Part shown: positions 27,530 through 49,614 of the stretch, one piece after another | Position numbering within the stretch: position 1 is the first letter of the stretch | Layout: the number at the start of each line of letters is the position of its first letter | DNA from: Amycolatopsis granulosa | GTDB lineage: Bacteria > Actinomycetota > Actinomycetes > Mycobacteriales > Pseudonocardiaceae | Assembly: GCF_011758745.1 (NCBI RefSeq) | Contig: NZ_JAANOV010000001.1 | Coordinates: 620,001-684,000, forward strand | Reading direction: 5' to 3' | Length of the DNA stretch: 64,000 nucleotides | Program-made: the position numbers and the translations under genes | The notes under the pieces: generated by a model | Database searches by the model: none | The model's input: the letters and a program-made list of their open reading frames with translations, nothing else | What the model was told of the DNA's origin: nothing

Positions 27530-28837
27530 GGGACCATCCCAGCCGCGCGGGCAAGACCACGCGGTCGTCCGCGAACTGCTGGGCGATCGGGAACCATCCC
27601 CGCTCGCGCGGGAAAGACCGGAACCGGGCTTTTGCCCAATGGTATTCACCGGGACTCTCCGCTCGCGCGGGGAAGATGGCGGCCTCTGAACCATGTGGGA
27701 GGCGACCTGGGACCATCCCCGCTCGCGGGGAAGACCACGCCGAATACGACTGGGATACCGACAGGTGGGGACCATCCTCGCTCGCGCGGGGAAGACTGAT
27801 GGCTGTTCACCCCGGCCGCAGCTCAGCAGGGACCATCCCCGCTCGCGCGGGGAAGACGGAACCGTCTGCTTCCGCGAGGCCCAGCGCCGGGGACCATCCC
27901 CGCTCACGCGGGGAAGACCGGACACCGGCCGGAAGATTGGAGACGACTTGGGGACCATCCCCGCTCGCGCGGGGAAGACAACTGGCCCGGCTGCTCGACG
28001 AGGCGACCGAGGGGACCATCCCCGCTCGCGCGGGGAAGACTACAGCTCAACCGACCCGAAGCCTGGCATCCTGGGATCATCCCCGCTCGCGCGGGGAAGA
28101 CGCGGTGAACGCGACCGACGCCTACGCCGCCCAGGGACCATCCCCGCTCGCGCGGGGAAGACATGCGGATGAAGTCGGCTGACGCGATGGCCACGGGACC
28201 ATCCCCGCTCCCGCGGGGAAGACCAGCAGCCCGAAGACCAGCAGCCCGAACTGGTTGGGACCATCCCCGCTCGCGCGGGGAAGACGAACCACTCCGGAAA
28301 CTGTTCCGCAGCATCGCGGGACCATCCCCGCTTGCGCGGGGAAGACGCGATCGCCACGTTGGTTGACCGCGGCGTGTTGGGACCATCCCCGCTTGCGCGG
28401 GGAAGACCACCTGGTCACCTCGATTTCGAGCCAGAGCCGTCGGGACCATCCCCGCTTGCGCGGGGAAGACTTGCCGAGGAACGCGTCGGTGAGCTGGTCG
28501 AGGGGACCATCCCCGCTTGCGCGGGGAAGACGCCCGCCCCGGCGGTGGGGGTGCCACCGTTGCCGGGACCATCCCCGCTTGCGCGGGGAAGACATCAAGT
28601 CCGGGGAGTTCGCCATCCACCCCGCGGGACCATCCCCGCTTGCGCGGGGAAGACCTGCTCGGCGACTTTTTCCCACGAGTAGGTGTGGGACCATCCCCGC
28701 TTGCGCGGGGAAGACTCCCGCGCCTCCACCCATCGGATCACCGCGAGGGGACCATCCCCGCTTGCGCGGGGAAGACAGAGCGCCCGCCTGTTAAGTGGGT
28801 GGTTCCAGGGGACCATCCCCGCTTGCGCGGGGAAGAC
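27530..28837 (-). CRISPR. Type I-E CRISPR array 1: 22 repeats, 21 spacers
   Basis: 29-base repeats with 61-base periodicity and mostly 32-base spacers. In crRNA sense (minus strand) the repeat reads GTCTTCCCCGCGCAAGCGGG then GATGGTCCC, with a CCCCGC/GCGGGG stem. Repeat starts on the plus strand: 27530, 27589, 27651, 27709, 27768, 27829, 27890, 27951, 28012, 28073, 28134, 28195, 28257, 28318, 28379, 28442, 28503, 28565, 28626, 28687, 28748, 28809. The four leftmost are shortened or mutated, so the trailer is on the left and the leader is beside cas2 on the right. Repeats from 28318 rightward carry T instead of C in the loop. Confidence 0.98.
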
Positions 28838-28888
28838 ACTTGGTGACCAGCGTAAACGCGGATCAAAACGGTGTTTCTTTGGCTTTGA
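28838..28888 (-). promoter_or_regulatory. Leader of CRISPR array 1
   Basis: Only 51 bases separate the stop of cas2 from the first intact repeat. The stretch is visibly richer in A and T than its surroundings and contains an imperfect inverted repeat (GATCAAAA near 28861 and TTTGATC near 28884). Position next to the intact, uniform repeats and the cas2 end marks it as the leader; the promoter may extend back into cas2. Confidence 0.65.
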
Positions 28889-29245
28889 TCACCGATTGCC
28901 GTAGCGTCGGCGGCGGCTGGCTTTGCTCCAGCCCACTGATTTGACTGGCGGCTCGTGGTTGGGTCCGAGTGTGGTGTTGGGCCTGAGGATGAGGTGGATG
29001 CCTTCGTGCTCGATGGGTTGCCAGTCGTGCTGGTGGACTTCGAAAGCGAGGCCTTGTTCGTTGGGTGCGTGGTACACCATGATCGCCCGGCCAGTTTTGA
29101 CCATGTCGATGACCCGCGCCCACATGAGTGCACGGATACGCTGGTTGATGGTGCCGACAAAGACGCCGGGTGAGATCTCCAACATCCATCGGGTGAGGTG
29201 GCCTCGGAGACCTACCGGACAAGCGGCGACCACAATGACTGTCAC
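28889..29245 (-). CDS. cas2: CRISPR-associated endoribonuclease-like Cas2e
   Basis: 118 residues, GTG overlapping the cas1 stop (GTGA). The Cas2e layout is clear: MTVIVVAACPVGLRGHLTRWMLEISPGVFVG, then IRALMWARVIDMVKTGRAIMVYHAPNEQGLAFEVH, then a basic tail RRRRYGNR. With Cas1 it forms the integrase complex that adds spacers; Cas2 dimers bridge two Cas1 dimers. Last gene of the cas operon, directly before the leader of array 1. Confidence 0.97.
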   Translation of the reverse strand: MTVIVVAACPVGLRGHLTRWMLEISPGVFVGTINQRIRALMWARVIDMVKTGRAIMVYHAPNEQGLAFEVHQHDWQPIEHEGIHLILRPNTTLGPNHEPPVKSVGWSKASRRRRYGNR

Positions 29246-30189
29246 AGCTCGTCCTCGTAGGATGTTCCGCTGGGCAGAGGAGTTCCATCGTAGTCCCAGA
29301 GTTGCACGATATCGGCAGTGATGTCAGTGTCCTCGGTGCCTGCATCTTCGGGATTGAGGAGGTTCCTGATGTCGCGGACGCAGCGATCCATGAAGTTGTT
29401 GCCGCGGAGCCGGTCGCGGAACGCGCGGCGCGTTTCGGCGCCGATGTCGGCGTAGCCGGCTGCCGCGATGTCGAAGGCTACGGGAATGGTGAGTTCGGCC
29501 TTGTACAGGTCAGCGATATCGAAAACGAAGGATCGAATGTGTCCGGTGTGGACAAATCCGAGTCCGGGGGCGCAACCGAGCGCGACGATGGCAGCGTGTG
29601 CCGCACCGTAAAGGCAGGTGTTCGCGGCGGACAGCGCTTGGTTCACCAGGGTTCCACCAGCGAAGTCGTCGGGGCTGTAGTCGCGGCGTTTCCACGCGAC
29701 ACCGGTTCTTTCGGCGTTCTCGCGGTAGAGGCGTCGCACGCGGGCGCCTTCCCGGCCGCGCAGCTGCTGCATGGATAGCCCGCTAGTGTCTTCGCCGGGG
29801 AAGCGCATCGCGTACATGTGCCGGGCCACTCGCAGGCGGCTGGAGTCGGTGGACACGAGCACGGCTTGGACTTCCAGCAGCCGGGAGGAGCGTGTGAGGG
29901 TGCGGCCGTGCGCATAGTAGCGGACGCCGTGTTCTCCGACCCACACGGCGGTGGCCCCGCTCTCGGCGAGCAGCACGATGGCCTGTTGCGAGACCGTGGT
30001 GCCGGGCCCTAGCAGCAGGGTGCTGATGGTGGCGGCTGGGATGTGGACGGTGCCGCGCTGGTCCTGGGCGGTGATGGCGTTAGCGTCACGGTGGATCACG
30101 CAGTGCTCGAGGTAGAGGAAGCTGATCCGGTCTTGAGCACGCGTGAGGTGCGAGAGAGGGACCGGTGGTGCGCCTGGGATGTCGGCCAT
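29242..30189 (-). CDS. cas1: CRISPR adaptation integrase Cas1e
   Basis: 315 residues, normal for Cas1e. Metal-binding residues expected from the E. coli enzyme are all visible: Glu147 in GREGARVRRLY, His214 in GLGFVHTGH and Asp224/Asp227 in SFVFDIADLYK. With Cas2 it integrates new spacers at the leader end. It starts at ATG 30189, three bases after the cas6e stop, and its stop overlaps cas2. Confidence 0.98.
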   Translation of the reverse strand: MADIPGAPPVPLSHLTRAQDRISFLYLEHCVIHRDANAITAQDQRGTVHIPAATISTLLLGPGTTVSQQAIVLLAESGATAVWVGEHGVRYYAHGRTLTRSSRLLEVQAVLVSTDSSRLRVARHMYAMRFPGEDTSGLSMQQLRGREGARVRRLYRENAERTGVAWKRRDYSPDDFAGGTLVNQALSAANTCLYGAAHAAIVALGCAPGLGFVHTGHIRSFVFDIADLYKAELTIPVAFDIAAAGYADIGAETRRAFRDRLRGNNFMDRCVRDIRNLLNPEDAGTEDTDITADIVQLWDYDGTPLPSGTSYEDEL

Positions 30190-30192
30190 CGG

Positions 30193-30861
30193 TCACGTCG
30201 CCGGGGCGAGAGTGAGGAGTCCGCAACCGTAGCCCTTTGCTGGACCGATCCCGCGGGTGAGGGCGGCGCAGAGTGCGTCGGGGTCGGTGACCTCGAGGGT
30301 GCCGCCGTAGGTGGCGGTGGCCAGGGTGACGGTGCGGCCGTGGCGGGTGAACTTGTGGACGGTACGGCTGAGGATGGTCGCGTCGGGTTCCTTTTCGCCG
30401 TCGGCTGCCACTGGGGGGATGGTGAACCCGTGGCGCTCGGTGCGGGCAAGGAACCAGCCGAGTTGCTGGTTGACGGTGACGTGACCGAGCCTTTTGCCGC
30501 GACCTTCCGGTTGGGCGCGGGAGAAGGTGGGGTTGGCGGTGAGCCGGAACGCGTAGGTGTCTGTGGCGGCGAGCCGGCCGAGGAGGGGGGTGTAGTCGCG
30601 GGTGTCCCAGGTGTGGGTTGTGGGCCAGCCGGCCTCTTCGACGAGGTGGGTCAGATCGGGCTGCGCAGGGCTGACGATGTAAAGCAGTGCGCGGTGGGCT
30701 GGGTGGTCGAGACGCCATAGCACCCGCCCGCCGTCCTTGGTGACAGGTGAGTGTTCGCCGGGGAAGGCGGCGAGGACGGCGGCGTGGAGGCGGTGTGGTG
30801 AGGCGAGCAGGTGTTTGGCACCGCGTCGGGCAGGGTTGAACTCGAATCGGGTGAAGAACAT
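30193..30861 (-). CDS. cas6e: crRNA-processing endoribonuclease Cas6e (CasE/Cse3)
   Basis: 222 residues from ATG 30861, overlapping the cas5 stop (TGATG); a longer frame upstream is only shadow of cas5. Two ferredoxin-like folds expected; the RNA-binding glycine-rich loop GIGPAKGYGCGLLTLAP is present near the C-terminus, and candidate catalytic His23/His26 lie in ASPHRLHAAV near the start. It cuts the repeat hairpin of the precursor and stays bound to the 3' end of the guide in Cascade. Confidence 0.96.
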   Translation of the reverse strand: MFFTRFEFNPARRGAKHLLASPHRLHAAVLAAFPGEHSPVTKDGGRVLWRLDHPAHRALLYIVSPAQPDLTHLVEEAGWPTTHTWDTRDYTPLLGRLAATDTYAFRLTANPTFSRAQPEGRGKRLGHVTVNQQLGWFLARTERHGFTIPPVAADGEKEPDATILSRTVHKFTRHGRTVTLATATYGGTLEVTDPDALCAALTRGIGPAKGYGCGLLTLAPAT

Positions 30862-31580
30862 CAGGAGGCTCCGAACAGCGCCATGGGGTCGTGGTCGCCC
30901 ACTGCGGATGTGGGCATGTAGTCGGGGTTGGGCAAAGTCACCTGGCCAGCGATGACGGTGCGCCACGCGTGCTGGCGGTGCTCGGGAGCGAACGTGACGG
31001 GTTCGTCCTGCACCAGATAGCTCACGTCCTGGGCCTGCTCCCCGAGCGGCGCGTCCACGGCAGTGTCCAGGGTGACAGTCGCCGCACGGTGTTTCTGCTG
31101 AATTCGGGGCGAGGCTTGCCACGGCGTCCCGGCTAGCGCGTCCTCGAGGGTCTGGTTGCGGACGCCGAGGGTGAGTGGGCCGGAGGGCGGGCAGGAACGG
31201 CGGCCGAGGTAGAGCGGGAACACCGGTCGCCGCAACGCCTCGTGCAGTGTGGTCAGGAACTGTTCCTCGCCTTCGACGACGGCGAGGAACACCGCGTCGG
31301 CGAGGTAGAAGCGATACGACAGCGGCAGCGGCGCGGAGCCGTCGATGGGCCGGGCGGTGTGGAAGTCGCGTTCGACGTGTCCGGGTTGGTCGAGGCGAAC
31401 CCCGAACCGCAGCGTGGCGAGGTCCTCGATCGAGTCGGTGCGCCGCCGACCTGCTGCGGCCGCCAACAGGCCGATGATGCCGCTCTTGCTGGGAGCGCGG
31501 TCGGTAGTGCGGCGGGTGAAGCGACTGCTGGTACCCCACGATTGCAGTGGGGCCGCGAGCCGGAGCAGCAGCACGCTCAT
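30861..31580 (-). CDS. cas5e: Cascade subunit Cas5e (CasD)
   Basis: 239 residues; ATG overlaps the cas7 stop (ATGA). Begins SVLLLRLAAPLQSWGTSSRF, the characteristic Cas5e opening, followed by RTTDRAPSKSGIIGLLAAAAGR. It caps the 5' handle of the guide RNA in Cascade. Interestingly the two arrays here end in slightly different 5' handles (ATGGTCCC versus GTGGTCCC), both of which this single Cas5 would have to hold. Confidence 0.96.
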   Translation of the reverse strand: MSVLLLRLAAPLQSWGTSSRFTRRTTDRAPSKSGIIGLLAAAAGRRRTDSIEDLATLRFGVRLDQPGHVERDFHTARPIDGSAPLPLSYRFYLADAVFLAVVEGEEQFLTTLHEALRRPVFPLYLGRRSCPPSGPLTLGVRNQTLEDALAGTPWQASPRIQQKHRAATVTLDTAVDAPLGEQAQDVSYLVQDEPVTFAPEHRQHAWRTVIAGQVTLPNPDYMPTSAVGDHDPMALFGAS

Positions 31581-32722
31581 AACGTGGCCTGTACCCGGTC
31601 GGCGACGGTGTCACCGAGGCTGGTGATGAGGGTGTCGAGGGTGGTGCGCTGGCCGAGTTCGCCCAGTTCGGCGGTCCGTTCGCCGACGCCGACGCTCCAT
31701 CCGGCGACGGGCTGTTCGTCGTAGGCCTCGTGCACCTCGCGACCGTGGTCGGCCAGGCGGCCGACGGCGGCGGTGATGCGGCTGCCGTTGTCGCGGTCGG
31801 TGATGGCGTCCTCGAAAGCGCCGATGAGGTTGATCGACTGGGTTTCGCGCACCAGGACCAGGACCGCGTCGGGCAGCGTGCGGTTGGCGAAGGTGTTCTG
31901 TTTGCCGGTGGGCATGCTGGTCACGAACGCCCGGACGAACGTCTCTACCGCCTCGCGGGTGGCGGCCGGATCGCCGAGGTTGTCGTTGAGCCGGTCGACG
32001 TCGACGGTGGCGTAGCGGTACAGGGTGGATGAGGTGAACTCGACGGTGCCGATCATGCCGGCGCCGGCGTCTTCCTCGGGATCGTCGCGTTTGTGGTCGT
32101 CGACGGCGGTGTAGTAGTCGTACTCGGTGGCGGCCTCGTGCACGCTCAGCGCGTGGGCTACCTGCGCGGCGGCGTCGACGTTGAGATCGGTGTTGTCGGC
32201 GACCATCCGCCCAAACAACGCGATGTCAATCGAGTGCGCCTGGTCGGCGCGTGCCTTTGCTTCCTTTTTGTCCACCACGACCGCGGCGTCGCCAGCCTCC
32301 TTGGCGGCGGTGATCGCAAGCGCGGCCAACGACACGAGCTGGGCACGGGAGAGAAACAGCAGGTATGCGGACTCCTCCAACGGGGGTTCGCCGTTCTTTT
32401 TCCGCGGTTCCTTTAACTTGATGCCCGCGGCTTCCAATGTCGTCTTCGCCAGCACCGCGGATCGTTCCGCGTGCGCGGGAGACCGGGTGGCGATGGTTTC
32501 GGCAAGCAGCTCGACCACACGCTTGGTGCGCACGCCAAGTTTCGCGGTCTCCACCATGGCAGTAAAGGCGTCGCGAGTGGCCCGCTTCCACGCTTGGCTG
32601 GATACCCGGGCCCGCCGGGTGCCGCCGTAGGTGGCGGTTTTAGGGCTGCCGGTGTCGTCGCGATTGATATTGCTCGGCGGCACAGTCTGCAGCACGTGGA
32701 TGTCAACGATGGTTCGCGTCAA
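31577..32722 (-). CDS. cas7e: Cascade backbone subunit Cas7e (CasC/Cse4)
   Basis: 381 residues from a TTG at 32722 overlapping the cse2 stop, with GAGG seven bases upstream. Family landmarks: IVDIHVLQTVPPSNINRDDTGSPKTATYGGTRRARVSSQAWKRATRD at the start and the SMPTGKQNTFANRTLPDAVLV segment later. Six copies normally form the Cascade backbone along the spacer part of the guide. Confidence 0.97.
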   Translation of the reverse strand: MTRTIVDIHVLQTVPPSNINRDDTGSPKTATYGGTRRARVSSQAWKRATRDAFTAMVETAKLGVRTKRVVELLAETIATRSPAHAERSAVLAKTTLEAAGIKLKEPRKKNGEPPLEESAYLLFLSRAQLVSLAALAITAAKEAGDAAVVVDKKEAKARADQAHSIDIALFGRMVADNTDLNVDAAAQVAHALSVHEAATEYDYYTAVDDHKRDDPEEDAGAGMIGTVEFTSSTLYRYATVDVDRLNDNLGDPAATREAVETFVRAFVTSMPTGKQNTFANRTLPDAVLVLVRETQSINLIGAFEDAITDRDNGSRITAAVGRLADHGREVHEAYDEQPVAGWSVGVGERTAELGELGQRTTLDTLITSLGDTVADRVQATL

Positions 32723-33390
32723 TACTTGTCCTCGGTAGGAAGCGGATCAGGGGATGAAGCACTGGCCGTCTCGATCGTGTCGGGCTTGGGCGCGCGGACG
32801 AAGTAGTCGCGACCCCATGCCAGGCGTACCTGCTCAACGCGGTGAGGGTACTGCCAGCGCAACAGGTCTTGCGCGAGCAGCCCGTAGTCCAGCGGCACCC
32901 GGGCGCCACGCAACTGCTGGATCAGGCTCCGGCTGTGATGAGTCAGCTCGGTGAAGCTGGTCGAGGTCAGCAGCGCCTGAAACCGGCGCACCGCCGGATG
33001 CGGGGGCGTGGTCAGCTCCCCCGGGGCCAGTCGCCGAGCCGACTTGCCCAGTCGGAACTCTCGCCCCTCGCGGTGCATCCCTGCGGGCACGGCTTGCTGA
33101 TGCAGCGCGTAGAAGGTCAATGCGAGGTGCGCGGCGTGCTCGGCCGGGGTCGTCTCGTCACCGCACCCCGGTGGCGCGAATTCCGGATCGAGGGTGTACT
33201 GCAGGACATCCGGCACTGCACCCGGGGGCTTGCCGGCAGCTCGGCGCAACCGCGCCAGTGCGGCGACCGACGCTGACTCGTTGGCCAGGGCGCCCCTTTG
33301 CAGGTTGCGTACCTTGCGGGCGACGATGTCGCCGACTCTGGTTGTGAAGCTGTGTTCCTGCTCGACAGGCACGATGGAGGTGTCAGACAC
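32719..33390 (-). CDS. casB: Cascade small subunit Cse2 (CasB)
   Basis: 223 residues from GTG 33390, preceded by AGGAG that overlaps the cse1 stop; the longer frame upstream lies inside cse1. All-helical composition with family features ALANESASVAALARLRRAAGKPPGAVPDVLQ and a basic C-terminal half (PHRVEQVRLAWGRDYF). Two copies normally line Cascade and stabilise the displaced DNA strand. Confidence 0.94.
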   Translation of the reverse strand: MSDTSIVPVEQEHSFTTRVGDIVARKVRNLQRGALANESASVAALARLRRAAGKPPGAVPDVLQYTLDPEFAPPGCGDETTPAEHAAHLALTFYALHQQAVPAGMHREGREFRLGKSARRLAPGELTTPPHPAVRRFQALLTSTSFTELTHHSRSLIQQLRGARVPLDYGLLAQDLLRWQYPHRVEQVRLAWGRDYFVRAPKPDTIETASASSPDPLPTEDKY

Positions 33391-33398
33391 TCGGGCTC

Positions 33399-35045
33399 CT
33401 AGGGTGCAGAGCGGGTGTGGACAAGTGACTGCGCGTAGGGCAAAGCGTCGGCAAGGTCCCGGCGGAACCACTCGACGGCGTGCGCCACGGTGATCATTCG
33501 GTTGCCGACCTGGTGACCGGACCAGCCGGCGGCTGGGGTCTGCCGCACCAAATCGTCACCGAGGTCGCTCACGAGGCGATACGCTCGTTGATGCCAGGCC
33601 TGCTGCGCCTCCATCGAGTCAGTGTCGTCGTTCAGGGCGGCCAGCCACCGTCGAAATGGCTGGTCCAGCTCCGCGTACGCGGTCTCCGTCGCACGGGTGC
33701 GCTGCGCTACATCCTCCGGTGCTGGTATCCCGCCGCCGTTCGGTGGTGCCTTACCCGCGGCCTGCGCCAGCGTCAACGCTAGTTTCCCCACCGCTCGAAC
33801 GGCTGCGTCGGTCGCTTCGACGCAGCTGACCGCGACACCGGCCAATAACGCTGCATCCTGCCGCAACAGCGTCGCGTGCAGCGCCAGCACGTCGTCGACG
33901 ACCTCGTCGGTGACCGAGTTGTTGCTGCCGTACACCATGCCGATCGTGCGCAGCTGTAGTGGAAAGTCCGGCTCGACGACTTCGGCGTCGATGAGCTCGG
34001 CAAGCCACTCCAGCATCGTGCCCGGCCACCGCGCCGTGGCTTCCCGGCCTTGCCCAGCACCGGCGGTGGAGGCGAGCATGGACTGCAACCCCCGCCAGAC
34101 GACCCGCTCCGGGTTGTGCTCCAACGGCATGTACACCACTGCTTCGCGGCGCTTCTTCTCCTGCGCCGGACTGCGCCGCCACCGCGAATGCGGCTCCAGG
34201 TGATGCTTGTTCTGCGGCTCCAGCGGATCGCCGTTGCAGACCAGCACGCTGCGCACAACACCGTCCTGCGGCACCAAACGTATCCGTCGGCTCTGCCAAG
34301 TGAACAGATCCACCGGGCCGCTCGGCGTGGACGATGCCCGGACAGCAGAGGTCAGCGGCTCACGTTCCCACGCGGGAAGATCGTCCCCCACCTTCTCGTG
34401 CCGAACCAAGTTGAGCAACAACGTCTCCCGCAGTGTGCGGCCCTCGGCGAGAACTCCACCGAGATTCCCGCTCCATCCCAGACCGATCGGGTATCCACGG
34501 CCGCCACGCACACGGTCGTCACCCACCGCACCGGACTTGATCCCCGAGGGGTCGAAAGCCTGGCAATGCACCAGCCAGCGCGCCGCCTCCGCAAACGACA
34601 ACGTCACGTGCTTGCCCGGGCGGCTCGCGAAAAACGGCCGCCCGTTGGGGACATCCGCAATCAACCGGTTGAGCTCGAACGTCTCATCCCGCGCCGTCCG
34701 CAAGGACGCGACCTGGAAGAACGGAGCCTCAGCATCAAACAATTCAAAATGCGACTTGTGTTGCTCCAGATAGGCGTTGATCGCCTCATCAGGAAGGCGA
34801 GCGGCCTTCCACAGACCCTCCCACTGCTCCACATCTCGAGGCCCGTTCACAGCTCGGTGCAAGATCGCCACGAGCAACCGCACCAGAGCAAACGTCTGAG
34901 TTCCCAGATCGCCCTGCACGGCACGCAACTCGTGCGCACGGCCTAGAACGCTCCGCACGGAGAGAATTTCACGTTCCCCGCCGAGCGTGATCACGGGCAG
35001 CCAAGGCTCGGACACCAGGTTGAACCGTGGTGCACGTTCGTTCAC
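33399..35045 (-). CDS. casA: Cascade large subunit Cse1 (CasA), PAM recognition
   Basis: 548 residues from GTG 35045, chosen because the mature-type opening RFNLVSEPWLPV begins a few residues later and the frame upstream lacks coding character. Typical Cse1 segments: LGTQTFALVRLLVAILHRAV, FFQVASLRTARDETFELNRLIADVPNG, a Zn-less body, and the four-helix C-terminal bundle (MITVAHAVEWFRRDLADAL). It recognises the PAM and recruits Cas3. Cas3 is not adjacent: about 700 bases with a small membrane-protein gene intervene. Confidence 0.95.
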   Translation of the reverse strand: MNERAPRFNLVSEPWLPVITLGGEREILSVRSVLGRAHELRAVQGDLGTQTFALVRLLVAILHRAVNGPRDVEQWEGLWKAARLPDEAINAYLEQHKSHFELFDAEAPFFQVASLRTARDETFELNRLIADVPNGRPFFASRPGKHVTLSFAEAARWLVHCQAFDPSGIKSGAVGDDRVRGGRGYPIGLGWSGNLGGVLAEGRTLRETLLLNLVRHEKVGDDLPAWEREPLTSAVRASSTPSGPVDLFTWQSRRIRLVPQDGVVRSVLVCNGDPLEPQNKHHLEPHSRWRRSPAQEKKRREAVVYMPLEHNPERVVWRGLQSMLASTAGAGQGREATARWPGTMLEWLAELIDAEVVEPDFPLQLRTIGMVYGSNNSVTDEVVDDVLALHATLLRQDAALLAGVAVSCVEATDAAVRAVGKLALTLAQAAGKAPPNGGGIPAPEDVAQRTRATETAYAELDQPFRRWLAALNDDTDSMEAQQAWHQRAYRLVSDLGDDLVRQTPAAGWSGHQVGNRMITVAHAVEWFRRDLADALPYAQSLVHTRSAP

Positions 35046-35169
35046 AGGAAGCCCCCAGCTTCGCCTTGGATCCGTGTCACTAAGGATCTTGTCCGAATGA
35101 GCAACCGTTACATCGTGAGCCCGAATTAGCCCGTTTGGAGCAACGCGCTTGCCTTGGCGAGTTCCCAGT

Positions 35170-35439
35170 TCACGGTCGACGGAGCCGCCGAAACCGACGC
35201 GCACTGGCGAGACCGCCGTTCACACCCGCGCTGATCGCCAGCGCACCACACGTGCTCAGCGTGGCCGCGCTTGGCGGGCGGTCCAAAATCAGGAAGATGA
35301 AATGACCGACGCCGTAAGCGGTCGTCAGCCCGAGGGCGGTCGACGGCATCGAAACGAACAGGAAGTGGTGCATTCTCTCGACCCGGTTCGCCCAATCTCG
35401 TCCGTCGGGCCCACTGTGCCCGCTCTTCGAGCTTGCCAT
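35170..35439 (-). CDS. Small membrane protein between cas3 and cse1
   Basis: 89 residues from ATG 35439 with GGGAG seven bases upstream, a good ribosome site. A short charged N-terminus (SSKSGHSGPDGRDWANRVER) is followed by two hydrophobic stretches (HHFLFVSMPSTALGLTTAYGVGHFIFLIL and AATLSTCGALAISAGVNGGLA) and a basic RRFRRLRRP end. No family recognised. It sits inside the cas operon on the same strand, so its product could be expressed with Cascade. Could be an accessory protein or a passenger; the residues look natural but codon evidence is modest. Confidence 0.5.
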   Translation of the reverse strand: MASSKSGHSGPDGRDWANRVERMHHFLFVSMPSTALGLTTAYGVGHFIFLILDRPPSAATLSTCGALAISAGVNGGLASARRFRRLRRP

Positions 35440-35480
35440 GCTGCACTCCCAGAACTTGCAGGGTATGTCTCGGTCGAGCT

Positions 35481-35519
35481 GGCCTGGTGCCGGCGTGCGC
35501 AGAACGCCGGCACCAGGCC
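35481..35519 (-). terminator. Strong hairpin downstream of cas3
   Basis: A perfect 16-base-pair stem: 35481-35496 pairs with 35504-35519 around a seven-base loop GCGCAGA. No U-tract follows, as is common in actinomycete terminators. It lies 220 bases after the cas3 stop and just before the small membrane gene, so it could end the cas3 transcript and uncouple it from the Cascade genes. Confidence 0.65.
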
Positions 35520-35742
35520 CTAACGCCCCGCCTCCGCGCGGGGACTACCTGTACACGGTCAGCGCAGCAACGGACCATCCACGACGAGCGTGGATCAACG
35601 CGAGTACTTCCCGCGCAGCGATCAAGGTAGCGGTTGAGGGACAACGTAGCAAGTTCAACCAGAAGGCGGGTAGTGGCGTACCTCCCGACCAAGCGGAGGA
35701 TGCACGCGTCAGCACCTCGGCTTATCTGATGAGGATCGCTTA

Positions 35743-38562
35743 TTAGATCCTTTTCGCGCTGAGTCCGCGTCGTGGCTGGTAGGCGAGGTCGAACTGCACG
35801 TTCCCTGCTCGCACCAGCGCGCGCCGGGTCTGGTCCAGGACCAGCACGAGCTGGCCGGCCAGCAGCGGCGACCGGTCGAAGCTGGTGAAACGATGTGCTT
35901 CGAGGTCGGTGATCACGGCGTCGGCGACCCCGGGGTGCGACATGGCCAGTGGGAGTCGCAGGCTGCATCCGGCGATGATTCTCGCCAGCCAGGATGGAAC
36001 CCGGTCGTCAAGCGGTACTTGGCATGATGCCCCGGTGGCGATCCAGTCCGGGGTGAGCAGGCCGCCGTGTTCGTCGCGCTGCACGACCAGAACCTCGATC
36101 GACTCGGCTCCGTCGCGGACTTGTGCTGCTCCTCGTGGGCCGTCCGCGTCGCCGACACCCGCCTGCAGCCACCCGACCAAGGTCCCGGGGCCTGTCGTCG
36201 AGCCCAAGAGGAAGACTTCCGCTTTCGCTGCTCGTCGCTCTGCGTCTTGCTCGGCCCGTTTGGCGGCTGCGTCGATGGCGTCCTGCCAGGATGCGGGTCC
36301 AAGGTTGTCGCTTCCGTAGGCGTGCTGGACGAGCGGATCGATGTCGGTGGGCAGTTCGACGGCCTGGAGGTCGTGCAGCAGTGCCGCGGCCCGCAGAAGC
36401 GGGTGCTCCGCATAGACGCGCCGTGCGCCGGCTACTGCCCGCACGGGCGCGCTGGTCCAGTCCTCGACGCCAGTGAGCGCGCAGCGCGGCGCTACCAGGG
36501 GGGCGGGGCGCGTGCGCTGGTGGCGGTGCAGTCGGCCCAGGCGTTGCAGGACAAGGTCAACTGGGGCGAGGTCGGTGACCAGCAGGTCGAAGTCGACGTC
36601 CAGCGATTGCTCCAGTACCTGCGAGGCCACGACCACGTGCCGGTGGGGGCGCTGGGCGCCGTCTCGGCCGAACCGGCGCACGAGGCCCTCATCGAGTTCG
36701 GCCCGGTCACAGCCCAAGAAGTGTGCATGGTTCACCGTGATCGCATCTTCGCCGAACTCGGCCACGAGCCGGTCAGCGGTCTCCTGTACCCGGGCCACGG
36801 TGTTGCGGATGACCGCCGCGCACCCGCCGTCGGCTAAGTGCCGCCTCAGATACGTCGCCAGTGCGTCCAGGTCGTCCGGCAGGCGATCCAGGGCGACCCT
36901 AACCGGGGATTCGGACGAGGGCACCACCACGGCCGGGCTCTGCGCGGAGGAAACCATCGGGTACCCCACCTCCGCGGGAACTGATGCATCCTCATCGCGG
37001 CCGGTACGGCCGTGGTGATAGGCGTTGAGCAAATCCCGGCGCCGCTCGGCCGGCAACGTCGCGGACAGCAACACCACCGGCACTTGATATGCTCCCAGCC
37101 ACTGCAACACCCGGCGCAGATACACCGACATGTACACGTCATAGGCGTGTACCTCGTCAATCACGACGACCTTGCCCGCCAAGGCCAGATGCCGCAGCAT
37201 CACGTGCCGGCACTTCAGCGCCGCCACCAAGATCTGATCGATCGTGCCGACCACGAACGGCGCCAGCGGCCCCTTCTTACTGCCGCGCATCCACTGATGC
37301 ACGGCCACCGCGTCGTCCTCGTCCGCCCCAACACACGCGAAGTCGCCTCGGGAGAGCAGGCCCGTGTACTCGTCGTTCAACGCGGCCTTGCCGTGCGCCA
37401 AGTGCACCGCCGCACCGCCCACGCTGCCCGGCAGTGCCTGCAACCAATCCAGCACGCGGGAGAACATCGCGTTGGTGGTGGCCTGGGTCGGTAGCGCCAC
37501 AAAGACCCCGTCCGCCCCAGACCCGCGAGCGAGAACCTCTGCCGCGATCAGTGCGGCTTCGGTCTTACCGACACCCATCGGCGCCTCTGCCACCACGATG
37601 CCCCCGCCCGCCTGCGCGCGGGCCATCTCCACGACCGCGGCCTGCGCCGGTCGTGCCACATCGATATGCGGGAACCGAGACGCGAACTCCGCGTCCAGAT
37701 CAGGACCGACCGCAGAAGGCGTCCAGCGGGGCGGCAACGCCAATTCAGCCCACGCGTGCGCCACACGAGCCTCCAGCATCTCCTCCGGCCAAACGGGCCC
37801 AGGCGCATTCGCGGTGTCCATTGGCCACAACGGGAACAACTCGGCGTTCGAAGCGATCCAATCGGCCATGATCACGATCCCGGTCAGAAGTACCATCGCC
37901 GGCCGCCCTAAACGCACTCCCGCCAGTGACGCCAGCCGCTCGTGCCCGCCGACACGACCGGTCACGAACTCCAACAGCTGTGTGCGCGCCACGTCCCACA
38001 CACCCGTGCCGGTCAAATGCGGGACCTGTCGTAGCGCGGCGACCTGCGACTGCTCCGGAGCGACACCATGATGACTAGCCACCACGGAAGCCAACTGCGC
38101 TGCCAACCCCGCCCGCTCAAACCCCGCCTCGCGACTAAGCCAAGTACGAACCGCACCGAAACCAACCAACGAATGAGTCGTGCGAGATCGCTGCGGATCA
38201 GCTTTCAACAGCGGAGATGCCGATAGGCCCGCATCCTGCATCCTGTCCGCGAGGAAATCGACCTGTACCGCGAATGCTGGTGACAACTTGCCAATATCAT
38301 GGACGCCCGCCAGCCAGCACGCCAGAAAGCGAACATCAGCACTTCCTCCCGGCAGGTCCTTTCCGATCAGATCCAAAGCTTGACGAGAAACCCACCGGTC
38401 AACCAATAACCCGGCGACCGTCGCGCTGTCCATCAAATGCAGCCATAACGGCAGCCAACCCGTCAGCTCGCCACGATCATTGGTAACCGACTTTGCCCAA
38501 GAGGACAGCCATGCCGCCTTACCGATTGCATCGGCAGTTAAACCTCGCACCACATGGGCCAT
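35743..38562 (-). CDS. cas3: CRISPR nuclease-helicase Cas3
   Basis: 939 residues if started at ATG 38562; an ATG at 38622 is in frame but that 20-residue extension looks non-coding. The HD nuclease comes first: GVHDIGKLSPAF near residue 86, THSLVG, VASHHG and ADWIASN. Then a superfamily 2 helicase: Walker A APMGVGKTEAAL near 329, DEVH box VVIDEVHAYD near 468, motif III LLSATLP, and motifs V-VI ASQVLEQSLDVDFDLLVTD...QRLGRLHRH. It unwinds and shreds target DNA after recruitment by Cascade. First cas gene on the strand; its upstream region borders array 2. Confidence 0.96.
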   Translation of the reverse strand: MAHVVRGLTADAIGKAAWLSSWAKSVTNDRGELTGWLPLWLHLMDSATVAGLLVDRWVSRQALDLIGKDLPGGSADVRFLACWLAGVHDIGKLSPAFAVQVDFLADRMQDAGLSASPLLKADPQRSRTTHSLVGFGAVRTWLSREAGFERAGLAAQLASVVASHHGVAPEQSQVAALRQVPHLTGTGVWDVARTQLLEFVTGRVGGHERLASLAGVRLGRPAMVLLTGIVIMADWIASNAELFPLWPMDTANAPGPVWPEEMLEARVAHAWAELALPPRWTPSAVGPDLDAEFASRFPHIDVARPAQAAVVEMARAQAGGGIVVAEAPMGVGKTEAALIAAEVLARGSGADGVFVALPTQATTNAMFSRVLDWLQALPGSVGGAAVHLAHGKAALNDEYTGLLSRGDFACVGADEDDAVAVHQWMRGSKKGPLAPFVVGTIDQILVAALKCRHVMLRHLALAGKVVVIDEVHAYDVYMSVYLRRVLQWLGAYQVPVVLLSATLPAERRRDLLNAYHHGRTGRDEDASVPAEVGYPMVSSAQSPAVVVPSSESPVRVALDRLPDDLDALATYLRRHLADGGCAAVIRNTVARVQETADRLVAEFGEDAITVNHAHFLGCDRAELDEGLVRRFGRDGAQRPHRHVVVASQVLEQSLDVDFDLLVTDLAPVDLVLQRLGRLHRHQRTRPAPLVAPRCALTGVEDWTSAPVRAVAGARRVYAEHPLLRAAALLHDLQAVELPTDIDPLVQHAYGSDNLGPASWQDAIDAAAKRAEQDAERRAAKAEVFLLGSTTGPGTLVGWLQAGVGDADGPRGAAQVRDGAESIEVLVVQRDEHGGLLTPDWIATGASCQVPLDDRVPSWLARIIAGCSLRLPLAMSHPGVADAVITDLEAHRFTSFDRSPLLAGQLVLVLDQTRRALVRAGNVQFDLAYQPRRGLSAKRI

Positions 38563-38810
38563 GATCGCGGATACCGCGCAAACCGTTACTCCGCGCCCGG
38601 GCGGGATCTCCTTTATCGACACTACGAACGAACTCCGCTATGCCTGCGAGTACCGGCGACCCTAGAACACCAAGCGCAACAGCCGCCCTACGAGGTCCAC
38701 CTGCTCGCTAGAAGAGGACAGGCGCCGCAACCGTCCTGATCAGCTCACCCGGACGACGGCGAATGCCACAGTAACGCCGTTTCAGTTGATGAGTATGCTG
38801 GTCAGGTAGG
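38563..38810. promoter_or_regulatory. Region between cas3 and array 2: leader of array 2 and cas3 promoter region
   Basis: About 250 bases lie between the cas3 start and the first repeat of array 2. The part next to the array (about 38740-38810, with GTTTCAGTTGATGAGTATGC) is less GC-rich than the surroundings and borders the intact repeats, as a leader should. Cas3 is read leftward and the array rightward, so this region probably holds divergent promoters for both. No hexamers can be assigned confidently. Confidence 0.5.
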
Positions 38811-39509
38811 GTGATCCCCGCGCGAGCGGGGGTGGTCCCGGGTGGAACGGGCATGTCGAAGACGAAGCTCTGTGATCCCCGCGCGAGCGGGGGTGGTCCC
38901 AGGTCAACCCTCACCTTGTAGCCAAGATCGCGGTGATCCCCGCGCGAGCGGGGGTGGTCCCACCTGCCGGATCGCGGGCAGCAGCTGCTGGAAGTGATCC
39001 CCGCGCGAGCGGGGGTGGTCCCGTGCCGCCCCCCTTGAGCACGATGCCGATCGTGTGATCCCCGCGCGAGCGGGGGTGGTCCCCGGCTGCCCAGTCGTTC
39101 ACGTCTCGGCCCTTTGTGATCCCCGCGCGAGCGGGGGTGGTCCCAGCAGGCCGGGCTTCGGGTCGGTTGAGCTGTAGTGATCCCCGCGCGAGCGGGGGTG
39201 GTCCCGGGATCGGCAACTTCGCCGGCGCGATCCGGGAGTGATCCCCGCGCGAGCGGGGGTGGTCCCCCGCCGACGATGCTGGCGTCAGCCCGCTGGGTGT
39301 GATCCCGCGCGAGCGGGGGTGGTCCCGGGCTCATCGTGCAACTCGCTGTGTCGAGGCTGTGATCCCCGCGCGAGCGGGGGTGGTCCCTCGTAGAGGTCAG
39401 GCGGGATCGCGAGGCCGAGGTGATCCCCGGGCGAGCGGGGGTGGTGTCGTACGATTTCGGAAGGTCGTTCGATATTCGCCGTGATCCCCGCCCGAGCGGG
39501 GATCATTCC
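38811..39509 (+). CRISPR. Type I-E CRISPR array 2: 12 repeats, 11 spacers
   Basis: 29-base repeats in the plus direction: GTGATCCCCGCGCGAGCGGG then GGTGGTCCC, period 61, spacers 32 bases. Repeat starts: 38811, 38872, 38933, 38994, 39055, 39116, 39177, 39238, 39299 (one C short), 39359, 39420, 39481. The last two are mutated, so the leader is on the left beside cas3 and the trailer on the right. The repeat differs from array 1 at the 5' end (GTGAT versus GTCTT), in the loop and in the 5' handle, though the stem CCCCGC/GCGGGG is the same. The spacer at 39145-39176 nearly matches one in array 1. Confidence 0.97.
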
Positions 39510-39541
39510 AACGTTCGGCGCGACTCAGCTCACAGTCGCAG

Positions 39542-39627
39542 GTGTCCCCTTGTAGGCGGGATAGTCCGACGCGAGCCAGAAACCTGTCCGGCACCTCGTC
39601 GTGCTCCCATCGAGCGGGGAGAGTTTC
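39542..39627 (+). repeat. Two decayed repeats trailing array 2
   Basis: At the expected 61-base step after the last accepted repeat, 39542-39568 reads GTGTCCCC then TTGTAGGCGGGATAGTCC, and at 39601-39627 GTGCTCCCATCGAGCGGGG then AGAGTTTC. Both keep the GTG-x-TCCC start and the GCGGG stem half but have lost the rest, so they are the oldest units of the array. Spacers between them are no longer bounded by functional repeats. Confidence 0.6.
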
Positions 39628-40033
39628 TGCGTAATACGTTCCCCGTATTTCCGCTTCCGGTGCTGCCTGCGCGAACAGAAGTGATGTCTTAAGCAATTGA
39701 CCTAGGGCTTTTTCGTTCTCCATTCAAAGAATCGCGAAGAAGAGGTCCAGCGACCTGCCGGCAACGAGCCGGTGTCGGCTAACCCTAACCAACAAACACT
39801 CCATTTTCCGGTAGTTGTCCACGGTAGCAGCCAGTCCGCCAGGCCACGCGAGCGACGACTTCTCATTCCGCAAACCCTTCCGACACTCCATCCCCATCGG
39901 CGCCCGTACCTCAAGGACAAGCGACAGCTCAGCCCCAGGTTCCCGCGCGATTCCGCCTCAGCACGCCACCAGTTCGGCACGACCCGTATCCATTCGGACG
40001 GGGCCGCGCAGGATACTTGGTCTCCATGAAGCC
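39628..40033. other. Gene-free stretch between array 2 and the recombinase
   Basis: About 400 bases with no frame that has convincing codon usage. It contains ordinary GC-rich sequence with no repeats or hairpins I can support. The short minus-strand frame starting near 39723 crosses the decayed CRISPR repeats and is judged non-coding. Confidence 0.4.
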
Positions 40034-41653
40034 CTATGCTCTATGGCAACTCAAACTGTTTCCGCTGGTAGAGCGCGTGTGCGTAGTGGCCGTTACGCCC
40101 CTCGGACACGTTCCATAACCCCAACCGTGCGGGTCGAGATTCGTCTCGACCCGCACAGTTCGTTTACCGGGGTGGTAGACCATCTGCAGGCCGAGCTGCT
40201 GGTAGACCGCTGCCTTGTCTTCGGGAGCGGCGTGGATCAGGGTGCGCCGGATGTCACCCAGCCCGTCGATCAAGCACTGGATCTCGTCCTTGCTCAGCCG
40301 CTGCGGCCGAGCAGCCGGCCGCGCCTTGGCGAGCGCTTCGGCGCGGCGGGCTTGGGTCTCGGCCATCCACCGAGTGACCAGTTGGGGGTCGGCCCCCGCT
40401 TCCAACGCGGCTCGGTGACGCCGGAGCGCCTGGTCGCACTCCTCGACGACCCGCATAGCCGCCACAGCGGCGGGTTCGCCATCGTCCTCGGCCTGGGCTT
40501 CGTACAACGTGTCGACCGTGTCTTTGAGCCGGTGCGGCGCGAAGGACTTCGCGAGCCACGCGTCCAGTGGCCGGAGGAGGTCACGCTCGGCGAGATAGAC
40601 GTTGCGCGGATGCTCCACCTTGTTCGCCAAACCGTACTCCGCGGGAAACCGGCACCGGTAGAACAACACTTCCCAGCTTTGCTGCCCCTGCATCCGCCGA
40701 CCGCATAGACCACAGCGAACCAACCCGCGCAACACATACCGGTGGCGGGTGCGTTGCCGCTCCCGCGTCGTTCGACCCGCTCCCCTGGCCCCCAGAACCT
40801 GCTGCGCCCGCTCGAACGTCTCCCCATCGATCAGCGCCTCATGCACAAGGTCATCCGACAAGATCCACTTGTCCCTCGCGTTCCACCGCATCCGCGTCTC
40901 ATGACCCAACGCAACGTCCTCGACATCGATCAAGACCTCGTCCTTGCGCTGCTTGTTCCACACCTGACGACCGGTATAGCGCGGATTCGACAGAATCACC
41001 CGCACCGCACCCTTCGACCACGCGATGCCAGACCGATGCCGATTGCGTGCGGGGTCGTGGGCCGACGGCGAAGGCACATCGTCGCGCGTCAAGCCCTCCG
41101 CGATCGCGAACATCCCCCGCCCACCGAGGTACTCGCGATAGATCCGCTGCACCACCGGAGCCGTTACCGGGTCCGGCTCCAGTCGGCGCAGCCGCTTACC
41201 CTCAGCGGCCTTCGCTGGGTTTGGGTGCGGCCCGGCGTCCGCCAACCGGTACCCGTATGGCGGGCGGCCCCCCAGGAAACGGCCTTCGACGCTGGCCTGC
41301 GCTGCCATCGCCGACCGCACCCGAATCTTGATGCGGTTGCGCTCCCCCTTGCTCATCCCACCGAACACCGACATCACGAGATCGTGCGCCTCGGATTCGG
41401 GATCAACGGCGCCGCCGACCTCCGGCACCCACAGCTCGACGCCGTAGTGAACTAAGACCGGGAAGGTTAGTCCGTACTGGTTGCCATAGAACGCGCGTTG
41501 CGGCTCGCCGATCACCACCGCATCGAAATCCCGGCCCGGATCGCGCATAGCCACCAGCAGGCGTGCCGCCTCAGGCCGGCGCTTCCACGGAATCGACCGC
41601 GACTGCCCGATATCGAAGAACTCCACCACAAGCTTCCCGTGCCGGTCGATCAA
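40034..41653 (-). pseudogene. Large serine recombinase lacking its catalytic start
   Basis: 539 codons remain. The frame opens abruptly at ALIDRHGKLVVEFFDIGQSRSIPWKRRPEAARLL: the usual first 30 or so residues with the YVRVST catalytic serine motif are missing. The rest is intact: GEPQRAFYGNQYGLTFPV, GGMSKGERNRIKIRVRSAMAAQ, GRFLGGRPPYGYRLADAGPHPNP, the recombinase domain (GIAWSKGAVRVILSNPRYTGRQVWNKQRKDEVL) and a zinc ribbon (LVRCGLCGRR...FYRCRF). Without the serine it cannot cut DNA. The truncation point coincides with the 3' end of the small gene 41650-41949, so that boundary is a recombination joint. Confidence 0.85.
40098..40955. repeat. Direct repeat, left copy (recombinase 3' half)
   Basis: An 858-base stretch nearly identical to 52258-53114, covering the C-terminal half of the recombinase gene. 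Left border: CTCGGACACGTTCCATAACC shared by both copies, with different sequence to the left. Right border: both share CCTTGCGCTGCTTG and then diverge. Both copies lie in the same orientation, so recombination between them would loop out the toxin island (about 12.2 kb). Confidence 0.9.
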
Positions 41654-42484: not shown

Positions 42485-42952
42485 TCACTGCGATTCGACA
42501 ACCCAACCGAGCGCGAACCCGATTTCCTGAATTGCGGGCTGAACGCGAAAGGCAAGCATATCCCGTGAGGCAGCAATGTGCAAGAACGAGCCATCACTTC
42601 CAGGCATCCAGGCCATCTTCAACTGGTCCGCCGAGAAGAATAGCAAGACAACATCTCCCAGCCACCAATCCAGATCGTCAACCGCTCCAACGAAATCAGC
42701 TGAACCTTCCTTGACCACACTTCTTCCTCGCTTCCCCGCAGTCAGCGTTTGATGGGTGCAATTTGGCGCTGCCGCCGTCATTATAAACTGCATCACCCGC
42801 CGCTTTTCATCGGGATTTGCAGCCTTCGGCCACTGCAATGTAATTGAATCGAATACGGTTGCTCGAAGTGTTTCCTTAGCAAAGGGTGGCACAAGCCCGG
42901 CGAATTCGCCAGGATTGTCGCGGAAGATAATCAGCAACATCTCACCGCTCAT
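42485..42952 (-). CDS. Probable immunity protein for the RHS toxin
   Basis: 155 residues. The start ATG 42952 overlaps the stop of the RHS gene (ATGA) and has TTTGGAG six bases upstream, inside the toxin coding sequence. The protein has LLIIFRDNPGEFAGLVPPFAKETL, a Trp-rich middle (VDDLDWWLGDVVLLFFSADQLKMAW) and no signal peptide, so it is cytoplasmic. Low GC and placement directly after the toxin tip are the usual signs of a cognate immunity gene, which neutralises the toxin in sibling cells. I recognise no named family. Confidence 0.75.
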   Translation of the reverse strand: MSGEMLLIIFRDNPGEFAGLVPPFAKETLRATVFDSITLQWPKAANPDEKRRVMQFIMTAAAPNCTHQTLTAGKRGRSVVKEGSADFVGAVDDLDWWLGDVVLLFFSADQLKMAWMPGSDGSFLHIAASRDMLAFRVQPAIQEIGFALGWVVESQ

Positions 42953-45900
42953 ATCTTTCTCCAAACCCGGAAGACGCGTCTGGCTGTTCGACTAGACCCA
43001 GTGTGTATATGCCACCGTCCAGCGTGGTCATCTGCGTTCTTAGCGTACCGCTTCGTCAGATTGTGCGGAGCATTCAGGCTAAAAATGTGCCGGTTCCTGA
43101 ATGTGATACCCTTCCCACCCAGTCTAACCTTTCTCAGCAACCTGTTCGCACGATTGGCAGCATCTTGCGACCGGGTTGTGGCAGTGACCCAGCGCCCTGC
43201 CTTCGATGCGACCCTACCGATGGCTTTCACCGCGGTAACGGCTCGTCCGACCCATCGGGTCACGCCGCCGGTGATGGCGGATGCGGCGAACTGGGCCGCT
43301 GCTGCCCAGTTGCCTTGGATGGCGTTGCCGGCGGCAGCGACGCCACTCGCGACAGCACCGATGGGCCCGGGAATGTTCGACACGACCTCGGCGACCGCGG
43401 TGACCGCCTTGACCAGGCTGCTGAACCAGCCGTGTCCGTCGAGGTCGAGGGTGTTGATGGGGTCGCCGGCGACGTAGTCGTAGTCGTTGGCGGAGCCGCC
43501 CTCTTCCGGGTCGACAGACAGGAACCTGCCCAGCAGCGGGCTGTAGGGCCGTGCGCCCATCTGGACCAGCGACAGCGCACCGGTGTGCTCATAGGGTCGC
43601 TGGTATTGGCCGAGCCAGCCGTAGTCCATGGAGCCGGGTGAGTTGTCGGGCACGTTCTGCGGATCAACCGCCCCGGCCTCGGTGAGGGGCTGGCCGTAGG
43701 GGTCGAAGGTGCGCAGCGCGCCGACCTGGTGACCGGCTGCGTCGGTGGTCAGGACCAGGTCGCCGCGGATTGAGGGGTGGTCGTAGCCGGGGGTGAAGGC
43801 GCCGTCGGTGCCGACTTTGCTGGTGTAGAGCACCCCGCCCGGCAGGGCCAGGGAGATCGAGGTGAGGCGGTTGTCTCCGTTGAGGGTGAGGTCAGGGGTG
43901 TCGCCGTCGCCGGTGAACCCGTACCGCACCACGGTGTTGTTGTCGCAATTCAGCGGGTCGCGGCGGATGATGCGGTTGGTCGCGTCGCGGGTATAGGTGA
44001 CATTGGCGTTCAATGCCGGGTCGGCGCTGGTGGTGATCGCGCTGATGTTGCGGTCGGACCCGTCCCAGCCCAGTGTGGTGACGGTGCCGTCGGCGGCGGT
44101 CCAGCTGGTGGTGTTGCCGTCGGTGTCGTAGGTGAACCCGGTGAGCGCGGTGGCGCCTTCGGTCGCGAGCAGCCGGTCGGCGGCGTCGTAGCAGTAGCGG
44201 GTCTCCGCTGTACCGGGTGCGGTTTGGTCGAGCAGCCGCATCCGGTTGCCGTTCAAGCCGGCGTTGGTCTGGGTGCCGGTCGGGCAGGTGGCCGAGGCCG
44301 CGGACGTGTAGTCGTAGGTGTAGTGGTGCCCGCTGACGTAAGCCTCGGTCAACCGCCCCACACCGTCGTAGAGGTAGTTGGGAGCACCAGGGCGAGCATC
44401 GACCCCGGCGAGGGACTCGTCGATGATCGTGCCGGCCGCGGTGCGCCCGACCTGGCTCACGATGTGCTGGTTGTCGCTGGTCTTCCAGTCCAGGCTCAGC
44501 AGCCGGGCCGCGTTGTCCTTCGACACCGCGGCGAGGGAAGTGCCGTTGCCGTAGGTGACGGTGGCGAGTTCACCGGCGTTGTCGTAGGTGACGGTGGCGA
44601 CGGTGGTGTTGTCCAGTTTCTGCGTCAGCACGCGGCCGGCGTCGTCGTAGGTGAACGACAGCACCCGCGCCGCGTCCGCCGCGTTGGGCGGGGTCACCGT
44701 GCTGGAGGTGACTCGTCCGACCTGGTCGTAGGCGGTGGTGGTGCGGACGCCGTTGGCGTCGGTGTAGGCGACGTCGCGGCCGAGCAGGTCGACGGTGGTG
44801 GTGATGGTGCCCTTGTCGTCGGCCACCGTGCTGGTGAGCGGGTCACCGCCGACTGCGTAGGTGTGGGTCACGGTGCGGGCGGGCACGGCGCCGTTGGCGG
44901 GGACCTGTTCCTGCAGCGGCCGGTCCCGGGTGTCGTAGGTGGTGCACGTCCACGCCCCGCCAGTGGCTTCGGCGACCACCCGGCCGGAGGCGTCGTAGAC
45001 CTGCTCGTCCACCCGGCCCGGACCGGTAGCCGGGCTGGTGGAGGTGGTCAGCTTGGGTAGTCCGCCCTGGTTGACCGCGGGGCTGCCGGGCACGCAGGGG
45101 TTGGCGCGGGTTTCGGCGTCGCCGTAGTAGGCGTAGGTGGTGGCAGCGCCCGTGGCCATGGTCTTGGTGGTCTTGCGCAGGTAGCCCACACCAGGGGACT
45201 CGTAGGCGACGGAGCCTGCGATGTTGAGCCCGGTGGGGTTGGCCCGGCCGGAGGACGCGAGTCCGTAGACGGGGTCGAGGCCGTTTTCATCGAAGCGGGT
45301 GGTGCCGACCTTGTCTGCGACGCCGTCGGATTCCGAGGCGGTGGTGGACGTGGTCAGCCCGTATCGCGGTTTCAGCTGGACGCCGGGCACCGCTTCCTGC
45401 ACACCTGCCGGAGTCGTCCAGTGCAACTCGAGCTGCGCGGTCAGGTCGAACTCGTAGTACTCGACCCGGATGCGTTTCGCCGCACCGGCGATGTCGTTGT
45501 GAAAGACACCGGTGCGCCACGCGGCAGTGGTGTTTCGCCAGTCGTCGATGACGACCTTGTCATCGACCCACACCCGGACGCCGTCGTCGGCCAGGACTCG
45601 CAAGGTGTAGTCACCGGCGGCGGGGAAGACGATGTCGCCGATGGCGCGGAGCGAGAAGTGGTCGGCGGGGACACCGGGAGTGGGGGCGGCGGTCCCCCAA
45701 TTGTTCACCAGCTGCCCACCGGAACCGCCGATCCCGGTGGCGTAGACCTTGGGGGCGCCGGTGAGGCTGTCGTTGTCGTAGTAGGCGACCGACAGGCCGT
45801 TGATGTTCTCGTCGTAGGCGGTGTGCCCGTGCGAGACCTGCGGGCAGGTGCCGTTGGGCAGCTGTCCGGTGAAGCACGATGCCGGTGCGGGCCCGTAGGA

Positions 45901-49236: not shown

Positions 49237-49614
49237 TGAGCCTCCAGAATTCAGGCGCCCCAGAACCCGCGCCCCCAATGACGGCCTTCGAAGTATCAGG
49301 ACACCGTTCAAACGCGGCAATACGCCAAATGTCCCAACCTTGGTGCGTAACCCCCGAACAGCCCAGACCGCACCACTCTTGGTACTCCTTATCGACGACG
49401 AGCTCCTCCGGTCGTCACCCGAATCGCCGTCAACCCCGGCTCTGGAAGTCAGTTATGCACCACACTTCCAGGCACTACCGCGTGACTCTTCTGATCGTGG
49501 TGACCCTTGTCACGCAAGGGTTCCTGCTTGGCCGTGGCCGGAACAGGGGTTAGAGTCTCGATGCCGGGCCGATCGGCCCCGCCATTTTCTGGGGGTTCTT
49601 TCACGGAGGTTCTC
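49237..49614. promoter_or_regulatory. Divergent upstream region between RHS toxin and lysozyme
   Basis: About 380 bases separate the two divergent starts and should hold both promoters. Near-perfect ribosome sites lie at each end (GGAGG before 49236 on the minus strand, CGGAGG before 49615). No convincing promoter hexamers or operator repeats were recognised. Confidence 0.45.

Follow-up and report, generated by a model that had tools for sequence, protein, structure and literature searches.

Near-identical spacers in the two arrays of a type I-E CRISPR locus of Amycolatopsis granulosa: probable separate records of two alleles of one invader site

The type I-E CRISPR-Cas locus of Amycolatopsis granulosa comprises two arrays that hold nearly the same spacer, which raises the question whether the pair is one record that was copied within the genome or whether it consists of two records taken from related invaders. 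An earlier sequence-only reading favoured the latter, proposing two independent acquisitions from the same gene of related invaders, the second of which was thought to cover a variant able to escape the first. The window considered here, i.e., the whole stretch of 64,000 nucleotides that was analysed, corresponds to positions 620001-684000 of a genome assembled as a single 5.62-Mb contig with a completeness of 99.62. It contains a complete type I-E operon on the minus strand (28.9-38.6 kb of the window), which is flanked by one array at each end (Table 1). All eight Cas proteins match the expected Pfam families, and both arrays feature 29-nt repeats, spacers of about 32 nt and a period of 61 nt, as is characteristic of type I-E.

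Table 1. Coordinates within the window of the cas genes, the two arrays and the spacer pair
Feature	Position	Strand	Remarks
cas3 (HD nuclease-helicase)	35743..38622	-	PF18019, PF22590, PF18395
cse1 / cas8e	33399..35204	-	PF09481, 5e-118
cse2 / cas11	32719..33471	-	PF09485
cas7e	31577..32722	-	PF09344
cas5e	30861..31580	-	PF09704
cas6e (translated stretch, not from a fixed start codon)	30193..30900	-	PF08798
cas1	29242..30189	-	PF01867
cas2	28889..29245	-	PF09707
CRISPR array 1	27590..28837	-	21 repeats, 20 spacers parsed (oldest-unit boundaries approximate); leader side = high coordinate
Array 1 spacer 13	28041..28072	-	crRNA sense AGGATGCCAGGCTTCGGGTCGGTTGAGCTGTA
CRISPR array 2	38811..39509	+	12 repeats, 11 spacers parsed; leader side = low coordinate
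Array 2 spacer 6	39145..39176	+	crRNA sense AGCAGGCCGGGCTTCGGGTCGGTTGAGCTGTA

The repeats differ between the arrays, reading GTCTTCCCCGCGC[A/G]AGCGGGGATGGTCCC in array 1 and GTGATCCCCGCGCGAGCGGGGGTGGTCCC in array 2. Since both arrays decay at the operon-distal end, new units enter beside the cas genes; likewise, the crRNA sense of both arrays follows from the decayed ends pointing away from the cas genes and also leans on the resemblance of the repeat to that of E. coli. This polarity fits the distribution of repeat variants in array 1, where the leader-proximal repeats 1-9 (28318-28837) contain CGCAAG while repeat 10 and most of the older ones (27590-28285) contain CGCGAG, a single switch implying that a mutation of the leader-proximal repeat was seemingly copied into all later units. 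By eye, a further degenerate repeat near 27530 adds a 21st spacer to array 1, and two strongly decayed repeat-like units may follow array 2 in 61-nt steps (39542 and 39603, within 39510-39630). A third array with the same repeat was not found, as all 28 genome-wide matches to the repeat core with at most one mismatch fall in arrays 1 and 2. Spacer 10 of array 1 (28224-28256) contains TTCGGGCTGCTG twice. Near the decayed end of array 2 lies a recombinase gene (40034-41653; PF07508, PF13408), so that the CRISPR locus may border on a mobile element, and at higher coordinates an open reading frame of 2123 amino acids (42949-49320) displays YD/RHS-like repeats by eye.

Parsing of the arrays bears out the near-identity that had been described: spacer 13 of array 1 and spacer 6 of array 2 agree at 29 of 32 positions, differ at positions 3, 5 and 9, and are identical over the last 23. 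Both lie in the same register relative to the repeat and in the same crRNA sense. The runner-up among the 465 pairs formed by the 31 parsed spacers (20 from array 1, 11 from array 2) reaches 18 matches, and the best pair per shuffle averaged 18.2 and never exceeded 21 in 300 trials, as opposed to the 29 observed; chance similarity of spacers from unrelated sources is therefore negligibly probable. A 20-mer common to both spacers occurs at only these two sites in the genome. The pair thus combines near-identity beyond chance with a shared register and sense, as would be expected of one site recorded in two allelic forms. In type I-E systems the PAM fixes the 5' end of the spacer, which would explain why both spacers start at the same base. 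The seed encompasses positions 1-5, 7 and 8 (definition as cited in the accessible text of PMC5071653), and two of the three changes, at positions 3 and 5, indeed fall within it. The probability that three random differences all come to lie in the first nine of 32 positions is 0.017, or 0.034 if either end is allowed, and the bunching of the differences towards the seed stands out less than the overall match does.

Duplication and independent acquisition are treated as distinct array events in the portion of PMC10457644 consulted, and the repeats of the two arrays serve as a clock to tell them apart, on the premise that a copied spacer should age at the rate of nearby repeats. Repeats 10-17 of array 1 carry three changes in 232 nt, from which 0.41 changes are expected per 32-nt spacer of like age (P of at least three, 0.009); with repeat 18 added, four changes in 261 nt yield 0.49 expected changes and P = 0.014, a clock which rests on three or four repeat changes, excludes the more decayed repeats 19-21 and draws on repeats that are maybe under selection. 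Repeats 1-8 of array 2 show no change in 232 nt. A within-genome duplicate would be identical or would have diverged at the rate of the array, whereas the pair differs at three of 32 positions versus 0.41 to 0.49 expected. Moreover, the repeats on either side of each spacer copy match the rest of the array in which it sits, which indicates that no repeat-spacer unit was moved whole. Sequencing or assembly error, by which an exact duplicate would have received three false differences, deserves consideration because the arrays are repetitive and the sequence was judged from the assembly instead of the reads. Three substitutions would then have accumulated within 9 nt alongside eight unchanged array 2 repeats, in a single-contig genome of the completeness given above, and an artefact of this kind is very improbable.

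The best explanation of the pair is that one invader site was sampled twice, in separate acquisitions and from different alleles, to which we assign a probability of about 0.8 (0.82). Accordingly worded, two related invaders would have been recorded at the same site, one spacer per array, and the three differences would be allelic differences of the invader, not mutations that arose in the arrays. The source would presumably be a mobile element, met on two separate occasions. A coding argument for such an allelic origin would be a weak one: in the frame that is most conservative among the six, YSSTDPKPG(I/L) on the minus strand, the differences amount to one synonymous change and one exchange of Ile for Leu, and coding constraint is not significant (null fraction of 0.12 for the best of six frames, 0.89 with the changed positions fixed).

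How often such pairs arise was surveyed in the taxonomic family of the window, where the cse1 family was matched in 104 of 386 genomes (102 above the cut-off). For the sample, 100 segments no longer than 20 kb were taken around cse1 matches, some genomes giving two, and the window was added, which makes 101 loci. Arrays were detected in 80 of these loci, and at least two arrays in 59, totalling 161 arrays and 2507 spacers, as counted by a detector that requires four or more units, accepts only spacers of 24-40 nt and repeats of 22-36 nt, and is blind to arrays beyond the segment; in the window it recovered 28 of the 31 parsed spacers, most of those from array 1 a base short. Of the 30480 pairs within one array, 67 reached a match of 80% or more and were spread over 27 of the 80 loci; 61 of the 67 were identical over their overlap. 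Conversely, only four of 28038 cross-array pairs reached this level, three of which were non-identical, and they stem from three of the 80 loci, namely the window, L070 (two pairs) and L120. Fisher's test for identity in same-array versus cross-array pairs gave 0.005 when the window was included and 0.033 when it was left out, values which overstate the strength of the contrast given that pairs within a locus are not independent and that there are only four cross-array pairs, one of them identical. Because same-array pairs are mostly identical and cross-array pairs mostly are not, the former look like products of copying and the latter mostly like separate records.

Like the window, L070 and L120 hold a same-sense spacer pair common to two arrays of one I-E locus. 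The pair of L120 (31/32) departs from that of the window in having a single difference, at position 13, outside the seed. The first pair of L070 (28/32) has four differences, at positions 8, 9, 10 and 25 (7, 8, 9 and 24 if the first base is assigned to the repeat), one or two of which fall in the seed depending on that assignment, while the second (31/31) is identical. The base at the repeat-spacer border of L070 varies in both arrays (C 31, G 20, T 3, A 2 in one; C 26, G 16, T 6, A 3 in the other) and could be the final base of the repeat, derived from the PAM; in the arrays of the window, unlike in those of L070, almost every repeat ends in C. Identical spacers recur within arrays, singly or in blocks, in L078, L094, L098, L105 and L113, one spacer being present four times in L078 and likewise in L098. 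Between genomes, nine spacer matches of at least 26 bases were found, and such matches suggest that invaders were shared. Some are diverged as the window pair is (L091 with L103, 28/31; L091 with L112, 26/31), while others are identical or shifted by a few bases; further matches link L070 with L072, L090 with L092 and L130 with L152.

These data bear on within-genome copying, according to which a spacer was duplicated or moved between the arrays and then drifted by point mutation. The abundance of same-array duplicates speaks for this process, as do the identical cross-array pair of L070 and the duplicated first spacer described for the I-E system of Streptomyces avermitilis in the accessible part of PMC4762764. 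Nevertheless, with flanking repeats that belong to each copy's own array and a divergence in excess of the repeat clock, copying is an unlikely origin of the window pair. The independent acquisition from related invaders that had been proposed at the outset hence gains support from the distinct repeats, the common register, the divergence beyond the local repeat clock and the survey contrast.

The target itself did not come to light. For either spacer, searches of phage and plasmid sequences, the check proposed along with the sequence-only reading, returned no protospacer above chance. In the phage collection, no place covering 80% of the query was found for either spacer (best E 0.9 and 0.3). 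Among plasmids, the array 1 spacer had no match at an E limit of 1; the array 2 spacer, at an E limit of 10, met at least five records with at least 80% coverage and about 88% identity among the matches listed (20 of 89 records), with a best E of 0.7 among these and no hit above chance. In IMG/VR, an exact 21-mer gave no match, and three degenerate coding patterns matched 0, 0 and 2 loci, none of which was taken as the target; the two loci share the same local sequence, antisense to a subtilisin-like reading frame by eye. Two patterns had no match each in GTDB contigs. Since the IMG/VR and GTDB scans used exact patterns, they may have passed over a target that carries other changes. With up to three mismatches, only the window's own genome matched within the genus (1 of 19 genomes) and the family (1 of 390). 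Eleven hits to the 5' part of the spacers agree with them at no more than 23 of 32 bases. Five of the 29 other spacers (1, 5 and 7 of array 2; 12 and 14 of array 1) were compared with phages at an E limit of 0.5: two had no match, and three had weak ones (E 0.08-0.3) to Gordonia phages, Streptomyces phage ZL12 and two unassigned faecal phage records. The lack of a protospacer for either spacer, which leaves source and PAM unseen, counts against the two-allele explanation, and the attribution to the same gene finds no backing in the collections searched.

One candidate emerged from an 18-mer of the shared part, which matched two IMG/VR contigs (L005 and L006), in L005 within a major capsid gene (phrog_10; PF05065) and in the most conservative frame of the spacers; the reversed 18-mer, which gave no match, speaks in favour of this lead. 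It was rejected, as only 22 of 32 bases match, and L005, like aligned homologues by eye, is at this point one residue longer than the spacer peptide needs. In addition, the predicted motif DPKPG.L.P turned up in 17 IMG/VR loci, several of which repeat the same sequence and not one of which reads as a capsid start by eye, and about 1.4 matches are expected for an 18-mer at the implied collection size, a rough figure. The own genome lacks a match to PF05065.

As regards the consequences of the three differences, crRNA 1 on the array 2 allele is computed to meet rG-dG at position 3, rU-dC at 5 and rA-dC at 9, and crRNA 2 on the array 1 allele rC-dC at 3, rG-dA at 5 and rG-dT at 9. In the part of PMC12871591 available, which reports an E. 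coli I-E library, rG-dG and rC-dC are the mismatch classes with the largest defects; it singles out positions 1, 2 and 4, and with two of its four spacers priming tolerated rG-dG at position 3. By analogy, each crRNA would be less effective on the target of the other than on its own, and priming by the mismatched crRNA would be possible, not assured.

This leads to escape and re-acquisition, a special case of the two-allele explanation, in which an invader lineage with seed changes would have escaped the first spacer and the mismatched crRNA would have primed uptake into the other array. Two of the three differences do lie in the seed, in E. coli I-E priming still led to the loss of many targets with two seed mismatches (PMC12871591, as far as accessible), and spacers of the Legionella type I-C system discussed below provide a direct precedent. 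On the other hand, neither a target nor a PAM was found in the collections searched, and many two-mismatch sequences remained stable without priming in the wild type according to the same part of PMC12871591. The order of acquisition cannot be read across two arrays, and repeat decay would make the array 1 copy the older one (3/232 versus 0/232), but the difference is not significant (P = 0.25). Furthermore, clustering in the seed is not general among the non-identical cross-array pairs, as L070 and L120 illustrate. Escape and re-acquisition is hence a possible history, with the odds against it, and its directed form, in which the seed-mismatched crRNA of array 1 would have primed same-site acquisition from the escape lineage into array 2 so that the arrays jointly cover both alleles, is a little more doubtful still. 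The suggestion that the second spacer covers an escape variant accordingly goes beyond the evidence, as the collections searched gave neither protospacer nor PAM and the place of a spacer in one array says nothing of its age relative to a spacer in the other. In the most conservative frame, moreover, one codon change takes two substitutions (ATC to CTG), which two diverged relatives, if this frame is right, explain no worse than an escape mutant that arose in one step.

Spacer pairs taken from two alleles of the same site document, in nature, how a host met a diverging invader more than once. Given the sequence of the invader, the present pair could be used to test whether the second acquisition followed from seed escape or from ordinary divergence. 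What is modestly new is the base rate, cross-array pairs occurring in 3 of 80 and same-array pairs in 27 of 80 cse1 neighbourhoods of the window's taxonomic family.

Among known systems, the literature yielded one clear precedent, PMC5071653, beside which the pair is genuine but modest, one more instance of a type of event already on record. According to the accessible text of that study, spacer pairs of the type I-C system of Legionella pneumophila ST222 hit overlapping LME-1 sites, the older spacer with a mismatch in seed or PAM and the newer one perfectly, a pattern interpreted in that study as escape with subsequent primed acquisition; it also mentions a plasmid protospacer against which two spacers had been acquired independently. 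Legionella ST222 thus has two spacers of one strain against overlapping sites of one mobile element, as the window pair would likewise imply, but in Legionella the target has been established and the relative age of the spacers could be told, whereas the window pair belongs to type I-E, spans two arrays and is known from its spacers alone. PAMs of further systems, located 5' of the protospacer, as given in the parts of the respective sources at hand, are AAC in Bifidobacterium and AC in Corynebacterium (PMC8482600) and 5'-AAG for the I-E system of S. avermitilis (PMC4762764). The latter resembles the present locus in its two arrays and a duplicated spacer, with active acquisition there, but differs in that its PAM has been mapped and that, in the portion of PMC4762764 concerned, the duplicate is a copy of the first spacer instead of a diverged pair.
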